Shown in pieces: positions 300-16,310 of a DNA stretch of 59,835 nucleotides (position 1 is its first letter; each line of letters opens with the position of its first letter). The notes under the pieces were generated by a model, which worked only from the letters and a program-made list of their open reading frames with translations, did no database searches and was not told the origin of the DNA. The DNA comes from Rhodanobacter sp. (GTDB taxonomy: Bacteria > Pseudomonadota > Gammaproteobacteria > Xanthomonadales > Rhodanobacteraceae): positions 1 through 59,835 of the forward strand of contig DZCM01000003.1 in assembly GCA_022730295.1 (NCBI GenBank). Reading direction: 5' to 3'. The position numbers and the translations under genes are program-made.

Positions 300-2148
300 A
301 ACCCAAGCCTTTCAGATTGGCCTTGATGGCCTGCTCCAGCCTCAAGGACTCGTCGAACTGCGCTTCGAGTTCGGCAACGAGGCGCGGCATCTTTTCCTCG
401 AAGGGTTCGCCATCGTCTTCCACGGATTCGGCGCCGACGTAGCGGCCGGGGGTGAGGACGTAGCCGTGGGCGGCAATGTCTTGCGTTGTGGCGGATTTGC
501 AGAAGCCGGGGATGTCTTTGTAGGTTGGGCTGACGTCAGGAAGCCCAACATTTGCGTCTGCGGCGTTTGCTTTGCGTTGGGCTTCCCCCGGATCAAGTCC
601 GGGGTCAGCCCAACCTACGGAATCTGGATTCCGGCCTTCGCCGGAATGACGAGTAGGGCTGTCGGTGTGCTGCTGGCCGCTGCGCCAGGCGTGGTAGGTG
701 TCGGCGATGCGGGCGATGTCGGCGCCGGTGAGTTCGCGGTGGACGCGGTCGATGAGGGTGCCGAGCTTACGGGCGTCGATGAACAGGGTTTGCTTGCGGC
801 GATCGCGGGCATTGCGCGGGTTCGTACCCTCACCCCCTGCCCCTCTCCCGGAGGGAGAGGGGGAAGAGCGGCCGTGCGCAGCGTCTTTGCCGGATGGCGA
901 GATGAGCTTTGATCTTGTCAGGAACCACAGGCAGACGGGAATCGGGGTGGAGTAGAACAACTGGCCGGGCAGCGCGACCATGCAATCGACCAGATCGGCT
1001 TCGACGATGGCGCGGCGGATGTCGCCTTCGCCGGATTGGTTGGAACTCATGCTGCCGTTGGCGAGCACGAAACCGGCAACGCCATGCGGCGCCAGGTGAT
1101 GGATGAAGTGTTGCACCCAGGCGAAGTTGGTGTTGCCTTTCGGCGGCACGCCGAATTGCCAACGCACGTCGTCGTCGCGGCGCGCCCAGTCGGAATCGTT
1201 GAACGGCGGATTGGCCAGCACGAAATCCGCGCGCAGGTCGGGAAACAGATCGCGTCGGAATGTGTCGGCCTGCTCGGGGCCGAAGTCGGCCTCGATGCCG
1301 CGCAACGCCAGATTCATCACCGCCAAGCGGCGCGTGGTGGCGTTGGATTCCTGACCGTAGATGCTGATGTCGCCGATCCGGCCGCCGTGTGCTTTCACGA
1401 ACTTTTCCGATTGCACGAACATGCCGCCAGAACCGCAACACGGATCGAGGATGCGGCCCTGGTACGGCTGCAACATTGAAACCAGCAGGCGCACGATGCA
1501 CGACGGCGTGTAGAACTGTCCGCCTTTCTTGCCTTCGGCGCTGGCGAACTGGCCGAGGAAGTATTCGTAGACGCGGCCGAGGATGTCCTGACTGCTGCGC
1601 GATTCCGGACCCTCACCCCCAAGTTTTCCGTCCGCCCCTTGCGCGGTGGCCGAAGTAAGCGAGGGAAGCAGCGAGATGGTACCGATCAGGTCGATCAACT
1701 CGCCGAGCCGGTGCTTGTCCAGCGCGGGGCGCGCGTAGTCTTTCGGCAGCACGCCTTTGAGACGCGGATTGTCGCGCTCGATGGCAACCATCGCATCGTC
1801 GATGGTCTTGCCGATGGTGGGCTGCTTGGCGTTGGCCTGCAGGTGTGGCCAGCGCGCTTCCTTCGGCACCCAGAACACGTTTTCGGCTTTGTATTCGTCC
1901 TTGTCTTCAGGGTTGGCGCCGGCGTAATCGCCCTTGCCCGCGACCAGTTTGGTTTGGTGTTCCTCGAAACGATCGGAGTTGTATTTCAGGAAGATCAGCC
2001 CGAGCACGACGTGCTTGTACTCGGCCGCATCCATGTTGTTGCGCAGCTTGTCCGCGGCCTGCCACAGCTTGGCCTCGAAGCCGAGACTGGCGCCGTTGCC
2101 GTTGGAACCAGCGGTTTTGCGCGGCTTCGTCGTTTTGCTTGTTGCCAT
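289..2148 (-). CDS. hsdM: Type I restriction-modification methyltransferase subunit HsdM, with in-frame repeat insertions
   Basis: N6-adenine DNA methyltransferase subunit of a type I system. From the ATG at 2148 (preceded by AGGGG) it is 619 aa. The HsdM N-terminal helical domain spans about 22-160. The SAM-binding motif [10 protein letters not shown] is at 235-244 and the catalytic NPPF at 313-316, followed by the family C-terminal blocks [10 protein letters not shown] (~464-473), YHAWR and [10 protein letters not shown]. Three linkers are abnormally long: ~169-190, ~424-450 and ~498-545. They are encoded by palindromic repeat DNA, giving peptides such as [13 protein letters not shown] and [11 protein letters not shown]. 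The frame is kept and all catalytic motifs are intact, so the enzyme may still work. An upstream TTG at 2316 would add 56 residues unlike the family and is not favoured. hsdR is not in the window. Confidence 0.93.
521..651. repeat. Composite nested-palindrome element inside hsdM
   Basis: Two nested inverted repeats can be read directly. The outer 14-bp arms are taggttgggctgac (521-534) and its exact complement (604-617). The inner 10-bp arms are gaagcccaac (540-549) and gttgggcttc (576-585). Next to them is a compact hairpin, attccggc (628-635) with gccggaat (640-647). The unit sits in frame in hsdM and encodes the extra segment around residues 498-545. It resembles small non-autonomous palindromic elements normally found between genes. 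Confidence 0.8.
824..873. repeat. Palindromic repeat (family A) inside hsdM
   Basis: A ccctcacccc stretch is followed by cccctctcccg and gggagaggggg, forming a strong GC-rich hairpin. The same ccctcacccc/gggtgaggg signature recurs intergenically at 16252-16310 and as a remnant at 1612-1625. Here it is in frame and encodes about 16 residues of hsdM ([14 protein letters not shown]). Confidence 0.75.
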
Positions 2149-16251: not shown

Positions 16252-16310
16252 CCCTCGCCCGCCTGCGGGAGAGGCGGCCGCAGGCCGAGCGCTCCGCGCT
16301 GGGGTGAGGG
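16252..16310. repeat. Family A palindromic repeat between tRNA-Leu and tRNA-Lys
   Basis: Bounded by ccctcgccc and ggggtgaggg, with an internal 8-bp stem gcctgcgg/ccgcaggc (16261-16285) and a second small hairpin agcgc/gcgct. It shares the GGGGTGAGGGT end with the copies inside hsdM. It would be transcribed within the tRNA precursor. Confidence 0.65.

Follow-up and report, generated by a model that had tools for sequence, protein, structure and literature searches.

An in-frame composite palindrome in hsdM

The window, that is, the whole stretch of 59,835 nucleotides analysed here, is the start of contig C19 in a draft genome of Rhodanobacter sp. (2.27 Mb, 81.6% complete). Its open reading frame at 289-2316 on the minus strand, with a probable ATG at 2157, is hsdM, which encodes the type I DNA methyltransferase subunit; the product contains the HsdM_N and N6_Mtase domains, and the solved structure that matches it best is 3khk. 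The frame runs for 675 codons without a stop and its invariant motifs are intact. A first alignment with 81 relatives (five more loci were left out as partial or split) revealed three extra stretches in the window protein, all encoded on the minus strand and all facing gaps in most relatives: S1 (1610-1668, residues 217-235), S2 (811-903, residues 472-502) and S3 (526-675, residues 548-597). An enlarged alignment held 120 of 135 loci, the other 15 being partial or split. In the moderate-quality AlphaFold2 model of HsdM (mean pLDDT 67, pTM 0.58, 33 sequences), pLDDT falls below 50 in six segments (the N-terminus, 165-190, 206-215, 420-447, 497-543 and 573-581), and the second, fourth and fifth of these are the three inserts. 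S2 and S3 are both low-confidence loops, the latter probably disordered; the model places segment 420-447 between a strand pair and segment 497-543 between a helix and a strand, and in it the linkers look like loops that tolerate inserts.

At S3, two palindromic elements (520-651) are translated in frame as part of hsdM. The first is a REPIN, an inverted pair of GTAG-tagged REPs, which occupies 520-618 (99 nt, or 33 codons) with its tags at 520-523 and 615-618; it consists of a first REP at 520-549, a 26-nt spacer at 550-575 and a second, inverted REP with an inner hairpin at 576-618. The second is a CGTC-tagged REP on the minus strand (622-651), which contains a hairpin (628-635/640-647, 8 of 8 positions paired) and is translated into 10 residues. 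The REPIN itself holds three inverted repeats, at 520-534/604-618 (15 of 15 paired), 539-549/576-586 (11 of 11) and 576-592/598-614 (17 positions, 88%). Folded as single-stranded DNA, the 132-nt composite reaches -44.1 kcal/mol (z -8.1), a value matched by none of 200 dinucleotide shuffles. Of the three coding-strand frames only one is open through the element, and it is the one that hsdM uses. A search of Rfam over 400-950 returned only two lncRNA matches, below the gathering score.

Much of this had been anticipated by a sequence-only reading, which described nested inverted repeats and a separate hairpin at 521-651, with the shape of a small mobile palindrome, translated as about 45 residues between YHAWR and KDIPGFC. 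The repeats map as described, the mobile-type palindrome turns out to be a REPIN plus a CGTC REP, and the frame is indeed kept between these two motifs: S3 measures 162 nt in the window against 24 nt, the commonest length among relatives, which amounts to about 46 extra codons. Its statements that relatives have a short linker and that the catalytic motifs survive also stand, given the 24-nt linker in 54 of 111 resolved loci and the invariant motifs in the open frame. The palindrome at 827-861 in S2 had escaped it, as had what may be a decayed one in S1, near 1610-1668.

Copies of the elements and a REP-associated transposase

The exact sequence GTAGGTTGGGCT occurs six times in the genome, always as part of an inverted pair. 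One of the three pairs is that of the hsdM REPIN, another lies at C67:1692-1791, outside the neighbouring genes by our reading (L002), and the third, at C83:2773-3443, brackets an open reading frame that scores 203 bits against the NCBIfam model of REP-associated tyrosine transposases (RAYT; cut-off 80), with no match in Pfam at 0.001. The genome thus contains a RAYT gene bracketed by the same REP that is found in hsdM. When one mismatch was allowed, we obtained 12 matches to GTAGGTTGGGCT (six of them with one mismatch) against 33 for the reversed control; a single core is therefore not rare, and only the exact inverted pairs count as evidence. These pairs, one of which surrounds a RAYT, make it most likely that entry was RAYT-dependent and that the REPIN reached hsdM by this route. 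The high copy number that is usual for REPINs, although not required here, was not found, with three exact pairs in a genome that is about 82% complete.

The CGTC core is dispersed, with 84 matches at up to one mismatch (four exact) against 18 for the reversed control, and the 30 matches inspected include non-palindromes. According to PMC3733652, CGTC REPs have no transposase of their own. The search for other copies proposed by the sequence-only reading thus found pieces of the element elsewhere, including the pair outside genes at C67, and the proposed alignment with close HsdM proteins showed the nearest relatives (L032 and L126) to lack the peptide; no close homologue carried the peptide without the DNA repeat.

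A second palindrome and its copies

In S2, a palindrome of a type that we label D lies at 827-861 on the minus strand. It is made up of a tail, CCCTCACCC, at 827-837 and a hairpin at 841-861 that reads CCCTCTCCC-GGA-GGGAGAGGG. The D core has 18 copies in the genome of the window and none in the control; it was present in 12 of the 16 genomes tested, with up to 83 copies in genomes other than that of the window, and the reversed control gave 0 to 4. One copy, at C17:3115-3135, shares a 21-nt core with 841-861 and lies 60 nt from a DUF559 domain at C17:2750-3055, so that the hairpin of the S2 element also flanks a DUF559 gene in the same genome. At 827-861 DUF559 itself is absent and the window holds only one hairpin end. 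Among the 15 of 18 D copies that we checked, three are in frame within genes, namely hsdM, metH (L295, G000:C40), where the activation domain is split, and a glycosyltransferase gene (L301, G000:C80). The last two show that restriction genes are not the sole hosts in this genome. Another copy (L293) lies in a long frame with no Pfam match.

Elsewhere in the window, a further D-type half is found at 16267-16310 (GGGAGAGG and GGGTGAGGG). S1 contains a D tail, CCCTCACCCCC, and the region near 1610-1668 is possibly a decayed D element; S1 showed no significant palindrome in the inverted-repeat test (p 0.93), and for that reason we set it aside as a third palindrome.

Palindromic inserts in the HsdM linkers of relatives

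We could establish the length of S3 at 111 of 136 loci, 54 of which have 24 nt and 29 of which, including the window, have at least 40 nt. Among the 25 loci of unresolved length are L147, L074 and L166, whose inserts are visible otherwise. On the tree, the row nearest to the window (L032, 86% identity over 481 kept columns) has no insert at S2 or S3, nor has L126, also among the nearest relatives, while the S3 insert of another near relative (L031) is long but encodes a different peptide and fails the inverted-repeat test. The inserts vary in family, length and peptide, the longest in S3 reaching 145 codons, and many long ones resemble palindromic elements of other families. We recognized D-type inserts in S3 of L043, L055, L088, L097, L135, L151 and L148, GTAG-type inserts in L161, L133, L168, L147 and L149, a CGTC-type insert in L128 and other types in L142 and L073. 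Examples of proteins with inserts at both S2 and S3 are those of the window, L043, L055, L058, L073, L088 and L148.

Judged against dinucleotide shuffles (p at most 0.01), an inverted repeat was significant in 5 of 20 long inserts at S2, 9 of 29 at S3 and 1 of 6 at S1; L161, L133, L168 and L166 are outside this set. None of the long inserts at three further variable sites in these proteins passed (0/19, 0/8 and 0/17, or 0/44 in total), so that S2 and S3 together (14/49) differ from the other sites with a Fisher p of 5e-5; the remaining 35 of the 49 failed the test. A simple scan for hairpins with stems of 10 or more and one mismatch showed the same trend, with four hits in S2 (8.1 per 10 kb), six in S3 (7.0) and two in S1 (5.1), against 14 in the rest of HsdM (1.2), 56 in other long frames (1.9) and 44 outside frames (3.7), but it is noisy and we prefer the shuffle test with its control sites. 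On a FastTree tree built without the S1-S3 columns, the 25 S3 carriers among 126 rows require 22 changes, the carriers being labelled by eye and support being low for 49 of the 122 inner branches. We conclude that the S2 and S3 linkers are recurrent landing or retention sites for different palindromic families in many HsdM lineages. The sequence-only reading had considered such an element unusual in a restriction-modification gene of this lineage, a view contradicted by these two linkers, which hold different palindromes in several phyla.

The GTAG-type inserts have common features. The REPIN of L161, a protein from a different part of the tree, is 68% identical to that of the window and shares its codon position and frame. 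In six of the seven inserts with a readable left end (window, L161, L133, L168, L147 and L166) GTAG is preceded by CC, the seventh (L149) having CT, and the inserts of the window, L161, L133 and L168 end in TAC, which is the conserved tyrosine codon before (D/N)IPGFC. In L166 a frameshift lies inside the S3 insert, which contains a run of G. In L133 the GTAG half-element is repeated four times in tandem and encodes VGAGLVPAQ repeats in HsdM.

We found no copy of the L161 REPIN in its genome (G398) besides itself, and only the tandem units themselves for the L133 element in G320, which counts against the idea that such elements are abundant in the genomes of their own hosts. The L133 unit had three matches in G411, three in G110, two in G046 (the genome of L074) and one in G222, and none in the genomes of L053, L028 or the window. 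All those of G411 are near its hsdM, one of them separated from the other two by about 0.9 kb. These observations fit hsdM genes carrying elements that they would have gained in another host.

Some relatives are peculiar in other ways. In two unrelated hsdM genes, L061 and L152, a stop (TAG and TAA, respectively) replaces the same glutamine (YG-Q-ESN, near query residue 322), and the frame is open before and after it. In L143 the reading frame of HsdM extends past RYVGAEAIEDD and takes in what looks like a GIY-YIG nuclease domain. In S2 of L073, two palindrome copies bracket what is presumably a miaA-like piece, with NN inside, an arrangement that is possibly a scaffolding artefact.

Hairpins around DUF559 genes

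The 145-codon S3 insert of L148 is organized as a hairpin with its tail, a DUF559 domain and then tail and hairpin in inverted orientation. A search for DUF559 (PF04480) in 17 genomes, partly chosen for their hsdM inserts, gave 21 matches in 10 genomes, and at 10 of these 21 loci a full D hairpin lay no farther than about 100 nt from the domain. Of 369 genomes drawn evenly from the class and not chosen in that way, 78 had a DUF559 match at 1e-15. We then tested 61 loci (the 21 above and, from the class draw, the 29 new ones with the best scores and 11 long-frame stretches) for the pattern CTCCC, 1-16 nt, GGGAG within 170 nt. The 61 loci represent 58 distinct places, 56 of them testable, with a hairpin on both sides in 37, on one side in 8 and on neither in 11, against 11 of 413 control windows located 500-1270 nt away. 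For the 29 testable places in L249-L277, the corresponding numbers were 20, 6 and 3.

Fourteen matches from the class draw lie in open frames of at least 300 amino acids, and when all 14 were inspected, 10 proved to sit in restriction-modification or DNA-methyltransferase genes. The hosts are HsdM (G135, G190 and G300), HsdS (G096, G190 and G202), HsdR (G280), N6_N4_Mtase proteins (G190 and G236) and a DUF1156 protein with a sub-threshold methylase match (G285); the others are an aminotransferase (G259), an AIRS-domain protein (G190) and two frames without a host domain (G185 and G255). Hairpins on both sides together with a host domain occur in eight cases, seven of which are restriction-modification or methyltransferase genes, which again speaks against the element being unusual there; G236, G285, G300 and the AIRS protein are the four cases that lack a hairpin on at least one side. 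The 17-genome search added a MmeI-type gene, another HsdS and, in Chloroflexi, metH as hosts, and a weak DUF559 match was seen in a frame of 1744 amino acids (L192).

A DUF559 gene is found in the S2 or S3 linker of HsdM in three genomes, in one of them with a one-sided hairpin. It has both hairpin ends in the hsdM of L148 and L283; in G300, where HsdM belongs to another family, it occupies the position of S2 and is flanked by a hairpin on just one side. The hsdM and hsdS of one G190 locus each contain DUF559, the former with a D hairpin in S2 and the domain in S3, where the right end is out of frame. In three HsdS genes (L176, L181 and L283, 3986-5881), the DUF559 element is located just ahead of an LFPDR...PEGW stretch; judging from these sequences, the specificity subunit perhaps also has a recurrent insertion site.

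We give an even chance to the idea that the hairpin-DUF559-hairpin arrangement is an undescribed class of bacterial mobile element, in which a Vsr-like nuclease would take the place of RAYT and have its own family of palindromic repeats. The CCCTCTCCC/GGGAGAGGG repeats, including the one in S2 of hsdM, would be its non-autonomous copies, and the element would enter the linkers of restriction-modification genes in frame and travel between species in these highly transferred genes. Its arrangement suggests that the element is mobile. In Caulobacter without a cytosine methyltransferase, the SOS response depends on VsrA, a protein with a DUF559 domain, according to parts of PMC12907096, which supports the action of a DUF559 protein on DNA in cells.

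Origin of the inserts

We consider it very probable that the S3 element arose when mobile palindromes of the REP type, namely a CGTC REP and a GTAG REPIN, inserted at least twice into an exposed HsdM linker, where an in-phase open frame and the tolerance of the linker allowed their retention, with a D-type palindrome in S2 and linkers that are hit recurrently. This reading draws on direct observation of the structure of the element, its copies, the RAYT, the absence of the peptide from close relatives, the recurrence of inserts and the hairpins around DUF559. A CGTC REP would have inserted in the S3 linker, as would a REPIN of a tiny family with a transposase-flanking copy elsewhere in the genome, and both would have been retained because one open frame joins hsdM in phase and the linker accepts extra residues. 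The third palindrome, of the type that also bounds DUF559-nuclease genes, would have entered the next linker, S2. RAYTs, and perhaps DUF559 nucleases too, would move the elements, and the insertions that land in frame in tolerant linkers would survive; HsdM presumably tolerates them and remains active. Restriction genes may be overrepresented among the hosts because they are modular and mobile between species and carry the elements along. The in-frame D elements in metH and a glycosyltransferase gene of this genome, like the DUF559 element in the Chloroflexi metH, count against a special role for restriction genes.

It could be argued that the inserts are under selection, the extra loops or mRNA hairpins tuning the assembly, specificity or expression of HsdM, since inserts recur at two homologous sites and several proteins bear them at both. 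We find this unlikely, given that the inserts differ in family, length (up to 145 codons in S3) and peptide, that about half of the HsdM genes (54/111) have the plain 24-nt linker and that the insert loops are of low confidence in the model. That hsdM is a decaying pseudogene, open by chance, is in our view quite unlikely: the draft genome is fragmentary, the gene is near a contig end and some relatives (L166, L061 and L152) have stops or shifted frames, yet no stop interrupts its 675 codons, the invariant motifs are kept and only one of three coding-strand REPIN frames is open. A single ancestral insertion inherited by all carriers, suggested by the window and L161, whose related REPINs share codon and frame, is highly improbable, because the two are far apart on the tree with neighbours that have other inserts or none, 22 changes are needed for 25 rows and the families differ.

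Relation to known systems and significance

Repeated insertion of REP-type palindromes thus accounts best for what is seen in hsdM. The inverted GTAG REP pair, the REP-flanked RAYT and the CGTC-tagged REP, as well as the spacer, the hairpins and the terminal tags, are features that the window genome has in common with the GTAG REPIN/RAYT and CGTC REP systems as presented in parts of PMC3116915 and PMC3733652, whereas it differs from the REPIN systems of Bertels and Rainey (2011, PMC3116915, in part) in having only three exact pairs. REPs and REP dimers in frame within genes such as uvrA, dnaE2 and recB are described in the main text of PMC3733652 (Di Nocera 2013), and in the recB of two species a REP lies at about the same place. 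The copy in the window alone is therefore not a new kind of insertion. In contrast to those hosts, as far as the main text covers them, the host here is HsdM, and the same linker has been hit in many lineages; that text contains none of the words "restriction", "hsd", "methylase" and "methyltransferase". The likeness to Rickettsia palindromic elements that the sequence-only reading had pointed out holds in so far as a palindrome is kept in frame inside a protein-coding gene. The identity of the element is another matter, this being a RAYT-type REPIN with a CGTC REP and not evidently a Rickettsia element, a distinction that we draw by description and not by sequence comparison.

With Caulobacter VsrA, as described in parts of PMC12907096, the genes reported here have in common a DUF559 domain in a PD-(D/E)XK nuclease; they differ from VsrA and Vsr-like nucleases in that most of the tested ones are bounded by inverted hairpins and some lie in frame within other genes. 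In the literature searched (mostly open-access, without preprints) we found nothing on REPs in hsdM or the repeated use of HsdM linkers, nor anything on hairpins around DUF559 or its mobility; both the repeated insertion into HsdM linkers and the DUF559 hairpin element are new to us.

Palindromic repeats are thus not confined to intergenic DNA, as the same places in a DNA-methylating enzyme repeatedly gain peptide loops from them. A very common palindromic repeat, for which we knew of no mover, probably has its partner in the DUF559 nucleases, which makes the origin of this repeat testable. Restriction genes, for their part, may serve to transport such repeats from one species to another.
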